A stretch of DNA of 64,000 nt, taken from assembly GCA_903813345.2 (NCBI GenBank), contig CAIIXF020000007.1, forward strand, positions 32,708,698 to 32,772,697, written 5' to 3'. The notes under the pieces were generated by a model, which saw nothing but the letters and a program-made list of their open reading frames with translations, was not told where the DNA came from and made no database searches. This DNA comes from Owenia fusiformis. Lineage: Eukaryota > Annelida > Polychaeta > Sabellida > Oweniidae. Below, piece after piece: positions 1 through 45,332 of the stretch; the first letter of the stretch is position 1, and every line of letters begins with the position of its first letter. Made by a program: the position numbers and the translations under genes.

Positions 1-1650
1 ATTTTCATACTAAGAATCATCCCTGAAAATTTGAAATTGATCTACTAAACGGCTCACCTGGAATTGCGTATACAAGACTTTACAAACAAGATTTTAGGAC
101 AGAAAATCCAAAATGGCTGCCTTGACATTTACCAAGAATGCCCAAAAACTAATCAGATCTAGATTTTCATAGTAAGAATCATCATTGAAAATTTGAAATT
201 GATCTACCAAACGGTTCACCTGGAAATGCATAGACAAGACTTTACGGGCAAGATTTTTAGACGGAATATCCAAAATGGCTGCCTTGACATTTACCCAGAA
301 TGCCCAAAAACTAATCAGATCTAGATTTTCATACTAAGAATCATCCCTGAAAATTTGAAATTGATCTACCAAACAGTTCACCTGGAAATGCGTAGACAAG
401 ACTTTACAGACGAGATTTTAGGACAGAAAATCCAAAATGGCTGCCTTGACATTTACCCAGAATGCCAAGAAAATAATCAGATCTAGATTTTCATACTAAG
501 AATCATCCCTAAAAATTTGAAATTGATCTACCAAATTGTTCACCTGAAAACGTGTAAACAAGACTTAACGGGCAAGATTTTAAGACGGAAAATCCAAAAT
601 GGCTGCCTTGACATTTATCCAGAATGCCAAAAAACTAATCAGATCTAGATTTTCATACTGAGACTCATCCCTCAAAATTTCAAATTGACCTACCAAACGG
701 TTCACCTGAAAATGCGTAGACAAGACTTTACAGACAAGATTTTAGGACAGAGAATCCAAAATGGCTGCCTTGACATTTACCCAGAATGCTCAAAAACTAA
801 TCAAATCTAGATTTTCATACTGAGAATCATCCCTGAAAATTTGAAATTGATCTACCAAACGGTTCACCTGAAAATGTGTAGACAAGACTTTACAGACAAG
901 ATTTTAGGACGGAAAATCCAAAATGGCTGCCTTGACATTTACCCAGAATGCCCAAAAACTTAAATCAGATCTAGATTTTCATACTAAGAATCATCCCTGA
1001 AAATTTGAAATTGATCTACCAAACAGTTCACCTGAAACGCGTAGACAAGACTTTACAGACAAGATTTTAGGACGGAAAAATCCAAAATGGCAGACAATAA
1101 AAAAGTGATTATGAGTTTTTGCTGATTTCTTTTTACAAAATTATCACATATAACTACTGTTAACAATAAGATAGGCTTTTACAACAAAGTACACCTGAAA
1201 TTATTTATAAAGCTACTAAATAGTTAAAATATGAAAACTGAAAAACACCATTCAATATGATACAAAGTATTATCGTGCGCTAACTTTAAACTTAAACTTA
1301 AAACATTCAAAATGGCTGACATGACTGAGCTAACAGGTCCAAAACCTAATCAGATCTAGAATGAAGTGAGCTGAACAAGATGTTAAAGTTTTAAAAGCAA
1401 CTGTGAAGCCATTTTTCTTAAAGTTTGCAGACAAGGATTTTAGCATTTGACTTCAAAATGGCCGACAGGAAGTAGGTATCGAGATAATTTTTTTCATCCA
1501 CATCTGTATGCACTCATAAAATATCCCTGAAAATTTGAAGGTGATATCTGTAGCGGTTTTGGAGAAAACTGCCGGACGTACGGACGGGCAGACAGACGGA
1601 CGCGCCTAGGCCGACAATATGGCCCCACACTATGTGGTGGGGACATAAAA
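1..1650 (+). mobile_element. Pearl-like element: 162-bp tandem core (about 6.7 units) plus ACGG-type microsatellite tail
   Basis: Units start at about 1, 163, 325, 487, 649, 811 and 975 (162 bp, one 164). Each ends with an AAAATGGCTGCC motif. After 1090 comes a diverged single-copy stretch and, at about 1571-1603, a CGGACG/CAGACGGACG microsatellite followed by GGTGGGGACATAAAA. The left end is cut by the window. The same family lies reversed at 44105-45332. Tandem core plus ACGG microsatellite matches the pearl elements described in bivalves, now linked to Helentrons. Non-coding. Confidence 0.75.
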
Positions 1651-1654
1651 AGTA

Positions 1655-1790
1655 TATATTTATTTTTCAAATTATATTGTTACCATTCAAAAGATGACCA
1701 TTAAATTGACGATGTGTTAAATTTTTAGATCTTTTTATACTGGTTTAAGAGAAATGTGTGAAAAAAAAGTTCTCCATATCGATACCACTC
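1655..1790 (-). repeat. Fragment of a dispersed 670-bp TIR element
   Basis: This stretch repeats, inverted, the bases at 2610-2715 and matches the right end of the full copy at 16126-16797 (shared TTACCATTCAAAAGATGACC). It ends in the terminal motif CCATATCGATACC. Together with 2608-3122 it brackets the pearl-like array at 1790-2525. Confidence 0.6.
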
Positions 1791-2525
1791 CTTTGGAGAA
1801 AATCTGACAAATCTGAAAAACCTTCAAAATGGCCACTAGAAAACAAGATGGCCACCCAAAAGTTAATCAGCTCTAGAACTTGATATCCTCTATGCTGTGT
1901 GCGAAAAATCCCAAAAACAAAATATTTCATTAGCTTCTTCTCTTTTCCCATAGTAAGGCCTAGGCATTAGCATATAAAACTTAAACAGAATTTGTTCACT
2001 GGTATTTGAGTTATCAAAGATTATGAAAAACAGCTGCCATAAATTCAAAGGCCATCTTGAAAATCCCATATTGGGCAATGCTCCTTTGCCCCTAAGCACA
2101 AGCATAACAAATTTGAACAAAATCTGTACATTGGTATTTGAGTTATCATATCAAAGATGACATATTTTAGGAAAATGGCCGCCATTTTCAAATACAGCGG
2201 CCATCTTAAAAATCCCTTCATGAGCAAAACTCCTTTACCCCTAAGTACAATCATTTAAAATTTGAACCAAATCCGTACACTAGTATTTGAGTTATCAAAG
2301 ATTGCATTTTTTACCAAAAATGGTGGCCATTTTGAATTGGATAACCATATTGAAAATTTCTTCTCGAGCAGAGGTCCTACACCCATAAGGCATAAGCCTA
2401 TAAAATTTGAATGAAATCTGTCAACCGGTATTTGCGTTATTGCCCGGACACACGAACGGAGGGACGAGCAAACGGACAGGTTTTCTATATCCCCCTCAGA
2501 CGTCGTTCGGTGGGATAATCATTAA
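1790..2525 (+). mobile_element. Pearl-like element, family A (about 135-bp units) with microsatellite tail
   Basis: Units share an ATGGCNGCCATTTT core, 'TTTGAACCAAATCCGT' and 'GTATTTGAGTTATCAAAGAT'. The tail at about 2440-2525 holds a degenerate CGGACACACGAACGGAGGGAC microsatellite and CCCCCTCAGACGTCGTTCGG TGGGATAAT. The same tail, reversed, opens the copies at 47726 and 58945. Non-coding. Confidence 0.65.
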
Positions 2526-2607
2526 TACATACCTCATTGGCTTATATAAGCCAAAACCACCCAAAATACCAGGGAGGTTACTCTTATTGTGCTTTTGGAC
2601 GATCTGA

Positions 2608-3122
2608 TCCTTTTAAACCAGTCATCAAAAAATTACACATTGTCAATTTAATGGTCATCTTTTGAATTGTAACAATATGATTTGAAATAAATATATATAC
2701 TTTTCTCTATGTTGTTATTTCTTGGTATCATATGTTTGGAATGAAATGAAACATCTATCGGAACCTCATTGGAAGAAAATGACAATATTGTAATTGGACA
2801 AACGAAAGTTTGGGTGATTTAAAAAAAAGTATCTCCATGTAGTTAATGAAATAAAAAGTTTATCTTAATTTTCAAGCTTCGGAAAGATATTTAATTTCAT
2901 TCTCAAGAATTGATAAAAAGTAACAAAAACAATTGCACTAAAAAACAAAAAAAAACAAAAATGTTATCAAAAATAGTTATATAAAATATATATAAACAAT
3001 TTTTGCATTAAATTGTTGTCAATCAGTCCAAATTACATAAGGGTCTGTGTTTTTTTACAGAATGATTTCAATAATTGGTTTAAGAGAAAAACATTGTTGA
3101 ATTCAGTTCACCATATCGATAC
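2608..3122 (+). mobile_element. Dispersed TIR element, partial copy
   Basis: AT-rich, non-coding. It matches the reverse of 16126-16797 over most of its length and ends with TTCAGTTCACCATATCGATAC. A shorter piece of the same family lies at 7520-7690. Confidence 0.6.
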
Positions 3123-3182
3123 AGTCCTTTGTTGATGCAACAATCCTCCCAAAATTAATAATTTTGAAATCCGTACCCATTA

Positions 3183-3578
3183 GGGGAGGCATCAAAAGTT
3201 CAATGTCGGATTGGAAACTAAATAGATCTAGTTTTGACTCCCCCCAAAAACTAAATAAGATGAAAGTTGATCGCTGACTTCCGGTTTGAGAATTTGAAAA
3301 ATTATTGCTAAACACGATCTAGTTTTTGTTAATTTCTATCGTAATTAGCGACTTTTAACAACTATTGATAGAATAGAATCCTTTGGAATGATCTTGACGA
3401 AGAAAGCATCAGGTAAATCTTTATTTTTAAACAATTCCAAGGCATTCTGAGTCAAAATTGCCAAAAATTTGAAATGTTGAAATTTGTCGGATAGCAAACT
3501 GAAATGGGTTTGAAACCCCTCCCCCCTAACTAGATTTATTTAGTTTTTTATCTGACATCAAACTTTTGATGCCTCCCC
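3183..3578. mobile_element. TTA-flanked MITE, about 400 bp, copy 1
   Basis: Terminal inverted repeats of about 50 bp begin GGGGAGGCATCAAAAGTTC and are flanked by TTA on both sides (3180-3182, 3579-3581). Two full sisters are at 14195-14604 and 43573-43986, and a decayed relative at about 51390-51590. It contains no coding sequence, so it would need a transposase from elsewhere. Confidence 0.85.
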
Positions 3579-17532: not shown

Positions 17533-17656
17533 ATTTTTATTTTGTTTTATAAGCTGGAAACTGGCCATGAGGTGGAAAGCCTCAGCATAGGTAGCGTCTC
17601 TTTCTATAGCTCTCTCAAGGGCTGTCCTACATTGAACTTCGGCATCAGCTTCATCA
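17533..17656 (-). CDS. ACL4: ACL4 exon 6 (TPR-like helix pair)
   Basis: Acceptor TTCTAG at 17657, donor GTATGT below 17533. The first base completes Cys with exon 5. The exon then encodes DEADAEVQCRTALERAIERD and ATYAEAFHLMASFQLIKQNK plus N, a TPR-like helix pair. It has 124 nt and ends in phase 0. The frame continuing from exon 5 (TDLC|DEADAE) is strong support for both boundaries. Confidence 0.86.
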
Positions 17657-18039
17657 CTAGAATAAACCAGATACACAGTGATAAATATCACACTTTGAAG
17701 AGTAAAATGGCTGCCATGTAATATACCCTGCATACCAAAAACATAATCGGATCATGGCACTACTCGGTCCTTGCCTCTGTAAGTATTTTAAGTTGAACAG
17801 ATATCAGCAGTTTTTCTTGAATTTTGATCACAAGATTTATGTGGCACCAACAAGAGACTCCCACAGGCCTGCCTAGCAGCAACAGATCATGACAATATTG
17901 CACCTTTTCAAAGTGTGATAAAAACCTTTTTAATAAGATACAAAAGTCCACACTTTGGAATGCCATGCAAATCTCTTGGATGTGAAGCAAAAGCTTTACT
18001 ATTTGGTGCTTTAAGCTACAAGAGAGCTACAATACTTTG

Positions 18040-21000
18040 TGCTCAATAAGCACTAGAGATGTAATTAAAATAGATATCTCTTGCCATAGATCTGTTATGC
18101 AATGCTTTGCCACGGCGCAGTAAGCACTAGAGATGTAAATTATAACAAATGTCTCTTGACCATTCTTACCATAGATCTGTCATGTAAAGCTCTGCCACTG
18201 AGAAGTAAGCACTAGAGATGTTACATTATATCAAATGTCTCTTGACCATTCTTACCATAGATCTGTCATGTAAAGCTCTGCCACTGAGCAGTAAGCACTA
18301 GAGATGTAATTATAACAAATGTCTCTTGACCATTCTTACCATAGATCTGTCATGTAAAGCTCTGCCACTGAGCAGTAAGCACTAGAGATGTAATTGTAAC
18401 AAATGTCTCTGCCACTGAGCAGTAAGCACTAGAGATGTAATTATAACAAATGTCTCTTGATCATTCTTGCCATAGATCTGTCATGTAAAGCTCTGCCACT
18501 AAGCAGTAAGCACTAGAGATGTAATTGTAACAAATGTCTCTTGACCATTCTTACCATAGATCTGTCATGTAAAGCTCTGTCACTGAGCAGTAAGCACTAG
18601 AGATGTTACATTATATCAAATGTCTCTTGACCATTCTTACCATAGATCTGCCATGTAAAGCTCTGCCACTGAGCAGTAAGCACTAGAGATGTAATTATAA
18701 CATATGTCTCTTGACCATTCTTACCATAGATCTGTCATGTAAAGCTCTGCCACTGAGCAGTAAGCACTAGAGATGTAATTATAACAAATGTTTCTTGACC
18801 ATTCTTACCATAGATCTGCCATGTAAAGCTCTGCCACTGAGCAGTAAGCACTAGAGATGTAATTATAACATGTGTCTCTTGACCATTCTTACCATAGATC
18901 TGTCATGTAAAGCTCTGCCACTGAGCAGTAAGCACTAGAGATGTAATTTTAACAAATGTCTCTTGACCATTCTTACCATAGATCTGTCATGTAAAGCTCT
19001 GCCACTGAGCAGTAAGCACTAGAGATGTAATTATAACAAATGTCTCTTGACCATTCTTACCATAGATCTGTCGTGTAAAGCTCTCCGACTGAGCAGTAAG
19101 CACTAGAGATGTAATTATAACAAATGTCTCTTGATCATTCTTGCCATAGATCTGTCATGTAAAGCTCTGCCACTGAGCAGTAAGCACTAGAGATGTTACA
19201 TTCTATCAAATGTCTCTTGACCATTCTTACCATAGATCTGTCATGTAAAGCTCTGCCACTGAGCAGTAAGCACTAGAGATGTAATTATAACAAATGTCTC
19301 TTGATCATTCTTGCCATAGATCTGTCATATAAAGCTCTGCCACTGAGCAGTAACCACTAGAGATATTACATTATATCAAATGTCCCTTGACCATTCTTAC
19401 CATAGATCTGTCATGTAAAGCTCTGCCACTGAGCAGTAAGCACTAGAGATGTTACATTATATCAAATGTCTCTTGACCATTCTTACCATAGATCTGCCAT
19501 GTAAAGCTCTGCCACTGAGCAGTAAGCACTAGAGATGTAATTATAACATATGTCTCTTGACCATTCTTACCATAGATCTGTCATGTAAAGCTCTGCCACT
19601 GAGCAGTAAGCACTAGAGATGTAATTATAACAAATGTCTCTTAACCATTCTTACCATAGATCTGTCATGTAAAGCTCTGCCACTGAGCAGTAAGCACTAG
19701 AGATGTAATTGTAACAAATGTCTCTGCCACTGAGCAGTAAGCACTAGAGATGTAATTATAACAAATGTCTCTTGATCATTCTTGCCATAGATCTGTCATG
19801 TAAAGCTCTGCCACTGAGCAGTAAGCACTAGAGATGTAATTGTAACAAATGTCTCTTGACCATTCTTACCATAGATCTGTCATGTAAAGCTCTGCCACTG
19901 AGCAGTAAGCACTAGAGATGTTACATTATATCAAATGTCTCTTGACCATTCTTACCATAGATCTGCCATGTAAAGCTCTGCCACTGAGCAGTAAGCACTA
20001 GAGATGTAATTATAACATATGTCTCTTGACCATTCTTACCATAGATCTGTCATGTAAAGCTCTGCCACTGAGCAGTAAGCACTAGAGATGTAATTATAAC
20101 AAATGTTTCTTGACCATTCTTACCACAGATCTGCCATGTAAAGCTCTGCCACTGAGCAGTAAGCACTAGAAATGTAATTATAACATATGTCTCTTGACCA
20201 TTCTTACCATAGATCTGTCATGTAAAGCTCTGCCACTGAGCAGTAAGCACTAGAGATGTAATTATAACAAATGTCTCTTGACCATTCTTACCATAGATCT
20301 GTCATGTAAAGCTCTGCCACTGAGCAGTAAGCACTAGAGATGTAATTATAACAAATGTCTCTTGACCATTCTTACCATAGATCTGTCATGTAAAGCTCTC
20401 CGACTGAGCAGTAAGCACTAGAGATGTAATTATAACAAATGTCTCTTGATAATTCTTGCCATAGATCTGTCATGTAAAGCTCTGCCACTGAGCAGTAAGC
20501 ACTAGAGATGTTACATTCTATCAAATGTCTCTTGACCATTCTTACCATAGATCTGTCATGTAAAGCTCTGCCACTGAGCAGTAAGCACTAGAGATGTAAT
20601 TATAACAAATGTCTCTTGATCATTCTTGCCATAGATCTGTCATATAAAGCTCTGCCACTGAGCAGTAACCACTAGAGATATTACATTATATCAAATGTCT
20701 CTTGACCATTCTTACCATAGATCTGTCATGTAAAGCTCTGCCACTGAGCAGTAAGCACTAGAGATGTTACATTATATCAAATGTCTCTTGACCATTCTTA
20801 CCATAGATCTGCCATGTAAAGCTCTGCCACTGAGCAGTAAGCACTAGAGATGTAATTATAACATATGTCTCTTGACCATTCTTACCATAGATCTGTCATG
20901 TAAAGCTCTGCCACTGAGCAGTAAGCACTAGAGATGTAATTATAACAAATGTCTCTTGACCATTCTTACCATAGATCTGTCATGTAAAGCTCTGCCACTG

Positions 21001-21360
21001 AGCAGTAAGCACTAGAGATGTAATTATAACAAATGTCTCTTGACCATTCTTACCATAGATCTGTCATGTAAAGCTCTGCCACTGAGCAGTAAGCACTAGA
21101 GATGTAATTATAACATAGGTCTCTTGACCATTCTTACCATAGATCTGTCATGTAAAGCTCTGCCACTGAGCAGTAAGCACTAGAGATGTAATTATAACAA
21201 ATGTCTCTTGACCATTCTTACCATAGATCTGCCATGTAAAGCTCTGCCACTGAGCAGTAAGCACTAGAGATGTAATAATAACAAATGTCTCTTGACCATT
21301 CTTACCATAGATCTGTCATGTAAAGCTCTGCCACTGAGCAGTAAGCACTAGAGATGTCTT
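18040..21360 (-). repeat. 84-bp minisatellite (about 39 units) derived from ACL4 exon 5 and its splice donor
   Basis: The unit is 84 bp (for example 18301 to 18385). On the gene strand each unit reads: a TA-rich run, ACATCTCTAG, the 42 nt that encode AYCSVAELYMTDL plus split Cys, then GTAAGAATGG and a short spacer. The array abuts the true exon 5 at 21306-21360 and runs into intron 5. Two units carry an internal deletion (near 18400 and 19715) and are about 46 bp long. Variants recur with an offset near 1315 bp (18396/19711; 19083/20398; 19202/20517), so a higher-order block of about 15-16 units was itself duplicated. The left-most unit (about 18045-18130) is the most diverged. Some units have GC instead of GT at the donor position. 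Confidence 0.95.
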
Positions 21361-21403
21361 TTACAGACACTCCATCACTGGGTAAGGCACAGGCTGCATT
21401 CAC
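21306..21403 (-). CDS. ACL4: ACL4 exon 5 (source of the 84-bp minisatellite)
   Basis: The acceptor is ATTTAG at 21404. The 98 nt encode VNAACALPSDGVSVKDIS and SAYCSVAELYMTDL plus two bases (TG) of a Cys codon, then donor GTAAGA (phase 2). The SxAYCS.AE.Y.TDLC segment is the most recognisable Acl4-family motif in the gene. The last 42 nt and the donor recur about 39 times in the minisatellite immediately downstream, so the donor actually used cannot be decided from sequence alone. The donor at 21305 is the only one contiguous with the unique 5' part of the exon. Confidence 0.85.
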
Positions 21404-44104: not shown

Positions 44105-45332
44105 ATCGCACCCTAAGGTGCTATATTGAAATCAGTTTGCCGGGCGGGCGGCGATTGGGCGGGCGGGCGGGCATCCCGAATAATCTTGTCTACAGGTTTC
44201 CAGCCAAACCGTTTGAGGGATTCATTTGAAATTTTCAGGGATGTTTCTACCTATGAAAGTTTAGAACTGATTAGTTTTTCGGCATTCTGGGTAAATGTTA
44301 AGGCGGCCATTTTGGATTTTCTGTCCTAAAATCTTGTCTGTCAAGGCTTGTCTACAGGTTTCCAGCCAAACCGTTTGAGGGATTCATTTATAATTCTCAG
44401 AGATGTTTCCACCTATTAAAGTTTAGAACTGATTAGTTTTTCAGCATTCTGGGTAAATGTTAAGGTGGCCATTTTGGATTTTTCGTCCTAAAATCTTGTC
44501 TGTCAAGGCTTGTCTACAGGTTTCCAGCCAAACCGTTTGAGGGATTCATTTGAAATTCTCAGGGATGTTTCTACCTATGAAAGTTTAGAATTGATTAGTT
44601 TTTCGGCATTCTGGGTAAATGTTAAGGCGGCCATTTTGGATTTTCTGTCCTAAAATCTTGTCTGTCAAGGCTTGTCTTCAGGTTTCCAGCCAAACCTTTT
44701 GAGAGATTCATTTGAAATTCTCAGGGATGTTTCTACCTATGAAAGTTTAGAACTAATTGGTTTTTCGGCATTCTGGGTAAATGTTAAGGTGGCCATTTTG
44801 GATTTTCCGTCCTAAAATCTTGTATGTCAAGGCTTGTCTACAGGTTTCCAGCCAAACCGTTTGAGGGATTCATTTGAAATTCTCAGGGATGTTTCTACCT
44901 ATGAAAGTTTAGAACTGATTTGTTTTTTTGCATTCTGGGTAAATGTTAAGGCGGCCATTTTGGATTTTCCATCCTAAAATCTTCGTCTGTCTAGGCTTGT
45001 CTACAGGTTTCCAGCCAAACCGTTTGAGGGATTCATTTGAAATTCTCAGGGATGTTTCTCTCAGGGATGTTTCTACCTATGAAAGTTTAGAACTGATTAG
45101 TTTTTCGGCACTCTGGGTAAATGTTAAGGCAGCCATTTTGGATTTTCCATCCTAAAATCTTGTCTGTCTAGGCTTGTCTACAGGTTTCCAGCCAAACCGT
45201 TTGAGGGATTCATTTGAAATTCTCAGGGATGTTTCTCTCAGGGATGTTTCTACCTATGAAAGTTTAGAACTGATTAGTTTTTCGACATTCTGGATAAATG
45301 TTAAGACGGCCATTTCTGTTCAAGGGTGCGAT
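44105..45332 (-). mobile_element. Pearl-like element (family of 1-1650), reversed, with 6-bp target duplication
   Basis: Six or seven 162-bp-type units (AAAATCTTGTCTGTCAAGGC, GTTTCCAGCCAAACCGTTTG, GGCGGCCATTTTGGATTTT). GGCGGGCGGGCGGGC microsatellite at 44140-44172. Ends ATCGCACCCT and AGGGTGCGAT are inverted and flanked by ATTTTT on both sides (44099-44104, 45333-45338). Two units share a 14-bp internal duplication (CAGGGATGTTTCTCT). Non-coding. Confidence 0.75.

Follow-up and report, generated by a model that had tools for sequence, protein, structure and literature searches.

How does a gene find its own splice donor when dozens of near-identical copies of that donor follow it, and what kind of sequence are those copies? 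The question is raised by a minus-strand gene in the window (the whole 64,000-nt stretch of DNA analysed). Joining two of its exons in phase gives a sequence that matches solved chains of ACL4 over the splice junction (4ynv, E 6.7e-4; 4ynw, 6.9e-4; 5tqb, 9.6e-4), in agreement with the host gene proposed in an earlier sequence-only reading, whose exon numbers 5 and 6 we follow. When joined ACL4 exons were used to query the whole assembly, all 30 matches at E up to 1 fell at this one locus and comprised six exons and pieces of the array. Exon 5 (21306..21403, minus strand, 98 nt), which reads VNAACALPSDGVSVKDISSAYCSVAELYMTDL(W) and matches ACL4 together with exon 6, is the source of the repeated piece. 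The authentic donor of intron 5, GTAAGA, occupies 21300..21305 on the minus strand and the previously proposed start at 21305 is confirmed. It scores 6.03, which ranks at the 62nd percentile among 34 reference donors of this genome; for these the top candidate of each exon was taken if it scored above 1.5, in those 57 of 83 surveyed stretches without a stop in the match. Intron 5 (17657..21305, minus strand) is 3649 nt long and consists mostly of the array. Exon 6 (17533..17656, minus strand) has its start set by the joined ACL4 match and its end, AAT/GTATGT, placed by eye. The acceptor had been put at 17657; this is correct to within the AG, which lies at 17657-17658, with the exon beginning at 17656.

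TRF delineates 84-bp units from 18079 to 21357 with 93-95% matches. Cutting by motif gives 41 units from 21357 onward, unit 1 being the real end of exon 5 (its last 52 nt, 21306-21357, minus strand). TRF and the unit list thus uphold the central claim of the sequence-only reading, that an exon end and its donor are multiplied in 84-bp units downstream of the exon. Its estimate of about 39 units becomes 41 by motif, the true exon end included, and the repeated end of the exon measures 52 nt (ACATCTCTAG plus 42 nt) where the last 42 nt had been given. In a full unit these 52 nt are followed by 32 nt from the start of the intron (in one unit 33 nt, in nine 34 nt). The donor reads GTAAGA in 31 of the 41 units and GCAAGA in seven; three have none. 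Units 1 to 40, placed by TRF and the unit and donor lists, span 18063..21357 on the minus strand and by hand calculation make up 3243 nt, or 89%, of the 3649-nt intron. The far end of the array is degenerate: unit 40 has decayed and unit 41 is a remnant without donor at 18030..18062 (minus strand, end approximate). Within the array, 18222-19700 recurs at an offset of 1315 bp, a block duplication covering 18222..21015 on the minus strand, and the block copies differ at 16 of 1479 positions, five of them clustered at one margin. Units 20 (19707..19753) and 36 (18392..18438), both 47 nt on the minus strand, carry an identical 37-nt deletion that removes the donor, and they are counterparts in the block duplication. 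The block duplication, the common deletion and the degenerate far end are what repeat turnover would leave.

The unit number comes from one assembly, and near-identical units and a 1315-bp block are the kind of place at which assemblers err. The array could accordingly be expanded by the assembly or be absent from the real genome. We consider this very improbable, as the units differ in a patterned way, the far end is degenerate, two units have a deletion in common and the array lies in the interior of a 39.8-Mb contig, C7; an error in copy number is still conceivable. Another possibility is that the array belongs to a dispersed satellite, or is a transposon piece, that happens to contain exon sequence, and tandem arrays are indeed many in the window (43 TRF rows). 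The 498-Mb assembly (525 contigs) was searched for a 28-nt exon piece with up to three mismatches. All 40 matches lay inside the ACL4 array and the reversed 28-nt control gave none in the same 498 Mb, which excludes chance. A two-unit probe placed 27 of 27 matches, best candidates only, in the array, and unit 1 is the coding exon itself. Dispersed origin, hardly credible on these grounds, was rejected by the genome-wide pattern search. We also note two 162-bp tandem arrays in the window, at 1-1091 (6.7 copies) and 44185-45315 (6.8 copies), which by eye appear to be one family in opposite orientation.

The copies are not weak imitations of the donor. All 30 extra GTAAGA sites score as the true donor does (6.03), except one that is slightly higher, in line with the dozens of near-identical 5' splice sites described previously. 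Scoring leaves out positions +1 and +2, and the GC units therefore score like the GT units. Since the copies are as strong as the true donor, position must decide between them, and the authentic donor is the only one lying 98 nt from the exon 5 acceptor. Exon definition would be the simplest explanation, and the donor at 21305 is most likely still the one chosen in splicing. The first donor, if retained in mRNA, reads TGG TAA in frame. Use of any later donor would retain it, and useful variation in transcript length through donor choice is therefore not supported; length polymorphism in the transcript had been one of the suggested effects.

The copied exon ends have a further property, which the sequence-only reading did not mention. 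The unit joints place TTGTTATAATTACAT or a similar stretch ahead of CTCTAG, and in 31 of the 41 units (the exon's own end counted) a 42-nt, stop-free, phase-preserving stretch lies between an AG and a GT donor. In unit 2, for example, it occupies 21222..21263 on the minus strand, after the AG and before the donor at 21221. The array could on this basis be a row of phase-neutral mini-exons, spliced in as 14-residue cassettes (CAYCSVAELYMTDL), such that ACL4 proteins gain extra copies of one TPR segment. In favour of this, an untrained acceptor model scores the AG at or above that of exon 5 in 24 of the 31 units; a score of -0.44 is found in most units, while the true acceptors of exons 5 and 6 reach -0.79 and -0.21. 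The same model separates poorly: among 911 AGs the true ACL4 acceptors rank only at percentiles 71 and 78, and an equal acceptor score is therefore of little weight. A second model, trained on 46 of this genome's acceptors, places the unit AGs below all 46, and it also rates the true acceptors of the KIF4-like and Scr-like genes described below low, for which reason it was set aside. Neighbouring pseudo-exons are moreover only 42 nt apart, less than the introns usually spliced in animals, which makes serial inclusion unlikely.

The copies show no clear sign of selection. In the 37 full-length units of the 41, 12 exon columns vary, five of them synonymously where 25.5% would be expected (p 0.20), so coding constraint does not speak for mini-exons either. 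Variable columns number 12 of 52 in the exon part and nine of 22 in the first intron part of these 37 units (p 0.16), and unit diversity is 0.022 for exon-derived against 0.057 for intron-derived sequence. The lower variability of the exon part could be a hint of constraint or of exchange with the exon. Taken together, we think it quite improbable that the array serves as a store of as many as 31 mini-exons, in which the duplication joint would have created an acceptor scoring like the gene's own. Were it so, ACL4 transcripts would take up variable numbers of a 14-residue TPR segment, their number open to fast minisatellite change, and exon-edge arrays more broadly may be a frequent origin, in this spiralian genome, of alternative exons and new introns.

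The ACL4 array is not the only one of its kind in the genome. A kinesin family search found 18 hits of one domain piece on contig C2 in 159-bp steps (one of 158). These belong to an array of 159 bp by 17.9 copies (TRF) at 346-3189 of stretch L070 (C2:23266000-23270000), in a gene that by its sequence is putatively KIF4-like. Its unit consists of an acceptor and the first part of the exon, and the last copy runs on as the true exon; scoring covered 18 AG copies, of which one is the true acceptor and seventeen are extra. In form it is the mirror image of the ACL4 donor array. A Scr/Hox5-like homeodomain exon in the Hox cluster (C1, near 18.29 Mb) carries 76 bp by 13.4 copies at L023:479-1497, with units of an acceptor and about 17 nt of exon; the acceptor dinucleotide is AG in 12 of the 13 scored units and TG in the other. 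The Hox cluster on C1 also contains a homeodomain with a KLTGP tail, of Lox5 type, and a separate Lox4-type homeodomain, Hox genes that we take to mark a spiralian and that speak against an amphioxus host; the assembly yielded no COX1 match. At one end of the cluster two adjacent Post-type homeodomains (L032/L033, C1:17970457-17970993), about 70% identical over 193 nt of DNA, form a tandem duplicate.

Forty further stretches, 20 from 60 TCP1 matches and 20 from 144 kinesin matches, were picked non-randomly, from the upper portions of the match lists; five of the 40 have an exon-edge array or duplication, two of these with two copies only. Four are CCT stretches: one of donor type (L075, 154 bp by 2) and three at acceptors (L079, 83-bp period, 7.6 copies before the stretch ends within the array; L083, 96 bp by 4.2; L087, 30 bp by 2). 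The fifth, in a kinesin stretch, lies at the acceptor of a neighbouring exon (L099, 93 bp by 3.9). Two candidates were rejected, L046, where the 33-bp units begin 24 nt past the donor, and L110, where a 37-bp array begins beyond the exon. The former is an array of 33 bp by 12 beyond a myosin donor (L046:1749-2147), and an array of 31 bp by 45 ends about 80 nt ahead of the same myosin exon. No regular tandem exon hits were seen in the match lists for DEAD (52 matches; 47 of 149 candidates scored), ABC (25 matches; 19 of 194 candidates scored) or TCP1 (60 matches). Stretches from TCP1 genes nevertheless had arrays, and list inspection therefore misses short copies. At C9:37986009-37994334 there are twelve irregularly spaced matches to one myosin-head stretch (profile about 18-84); a myosin heavy chain's alternative exons are the probable explanation, which sets these matches apart from the minisatellites.

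Where acceptors are copied, the true one is the copy that continues into the remainder of its exon. It is no stronger than most of the others, although at KIF4 and L099 the copy farthest out is weaker. This recurrence bears on whether the extra ACL4 donors have a regulatory role, whereby distal donors would compete or bind U1 and lower productive splicing, and unproductive, decayed transcripts would tune the ACL4 dose. The 30 intact GTAAGA copies of equal score and the immediate stop (TGG TAA) upon use of a distal donor are compatible with such decoys, and downstream units are reportedly used in human IFI6 (PMC4526556). The donors are, however, not strictly kept, being GC in seven and missing in three of the 41 units. 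Similar arrays stand at unrelated genes and copy acceptors as well, which fits a general process, and the comparable arrays of amphioxus are reported to leave splicing undisturbed (PMC3087553, PMC3902484). We therefore regard a regulatory role as unlikely, and the array as a U1 sink is, judged by scale, implausible.

Are such arrays directed to exon edges? We surveyed 83 stretches, representing 14 of 50 homeobox, 30 of 92 myosin, 19 of 60 TCP1 and 20 of 144 kinesin matches; L089 was left out, its match lying at the stretch edge. Edges were the ends of domain matches, compared with 4814 flank windows of 17 nt for TRF arrays of period at least 25, and the flank windows of L071, L099 and L109 were set with default edges. 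Arrays cover five of 166 edges against 6.7% of flank windows, the L099 array being counted as flank because it touches an unsurveyed exon. With a stricter score the values are four of 166 and 6.5%, and with all periods six of 166 and 8.8%. By bases, arrays cover 6.3% of flank (bootstrap 3.3-9.4%) and 1.4% of interior. A special attraction of arrays to exon edges is not supported; depletion at edges is suggested, not established. The pattern would fit array birth anywhere in introns together with selection against harmful cases.

We consider it likely that the ACL4 array is a near-neutral exon-edge minisatellite, with the first donor still used and the array ignored by splicing. An 84-bp stretch straddling the junction of exon 5 with intron 5 would have been duplicated in tandem and then expanded, by slippage or unequal exchange, until about 40 units had been added, one late step being a 1.3-kb block duplication. 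One intact exon copy would stay at the edge of the array, since the remainder of the exon is outside it, and under exon definition only the first donor would close a 98-nt exon with the exon 5 acceptor. A general process may strew tandem repeats over introns genome-wide and sometimes copy an exon edge, donor or acceptor. The array is thus probably a tolerated by-product of repeat growth. We base this reading on the anatomy of the array, its uniqueness, the equal donor scores, the stop codon, the recurrence at other genes and the lack of enrichment at edges. From these we infer near-neutrality, slippage or unequal exchange as the source of the units, and exon definition as the rule of choice.

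The interest of these loci lies partly in splicing itself. About thirty equal donors at ACL4 and seventeen extra acceptors at the KIF4-like gene largely remove site strength as a variable, and position and exon context must therefore tell the true site from the copies. The two arrays form a natural test of exon definition against proximity. Exon-edge minisatellites, known from lancelets, occur at several genes of a spiralian, and intron length, cryptic exons and perhaps new introns may arise there through such arrays. Gene predictors could also be misled by them.

The minisatellite of the human gene IFI6 has a 12-bp unit, much shorter than that of ACL4. In both, a minisatellite repeats the splice donor beside an exon; the difference is that in IFI6 (6-16; Turri et al. 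1995) two downstream repeat units are reported as donors in mRNA (PMC4526556). Copies are therefore not to be assumed always ignored, and by analogy this would count against the near-neutral reading of the ACL4 array. Other human cases are more distant. Duplicated genes have variable internal tandem repeats at exon-intron boundaries, with new introns arising via cryptic splice sites; according to the parts of that report consulted, these are mostly exon or intron elongation in recent primate copies and not intronic arrays of splice sites (PMC2812944). The intronic VNTR of ABCA7 is a tandem repeat tied to splicing, with no mention in the available text of units copying an exon edge (PMC5954066). 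Among annelids, an earthworm metallothionein gene is described, in the portion of the account at hand, as having intronic minisatellites and a duplication of the fourth exon that is absent from the transcript, without an exon-edge array. Our search of the open-licence literature, in the parts accessible, recognised no exon-edge arrays outside amphioxus and human.

The closest relatives are the mirages of amphioxus, here taken from the accessible portions of two reports (PMC3087553, PMC3902484). These minisatellites at exon edges, found in Adh3, the globins BflGb6 and BflGb9, TnC and PGBD5, can copy either edge and carry splice signals in many but not all units. They show length and somatic instability, RT-PCR suggests that regular splicing is not hindered, and they could seed new introns. 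The ACL4 units likewise span an exon-intron boundary (52 nt of exon and about 32 nt of intron), only part of them have donors (31 GT, seven GC, three none), turnover is uneven (the 1315-bp block duplication and the degenerate units 40-41), and in this genome either edge, donor or acceptor, is copied. Splicing and instability are shown for the amphioxus arrays, whereas the ACL4 array is known from one assembly sequence. The host is a spiralian and not a cephalochordate, although host group is not a structural feature, and ACL4 has 41 units against six and three in the two haplotypes of BflGb6. The array had been called unusual. This holds in part only, as the kind is known from amphioxus and recurs at other genes here: the ACL4 array is of the mirage kind, and it is the spiralian host group and the 41 units that go beyond the published cases found, as far as the portions consulted extend.
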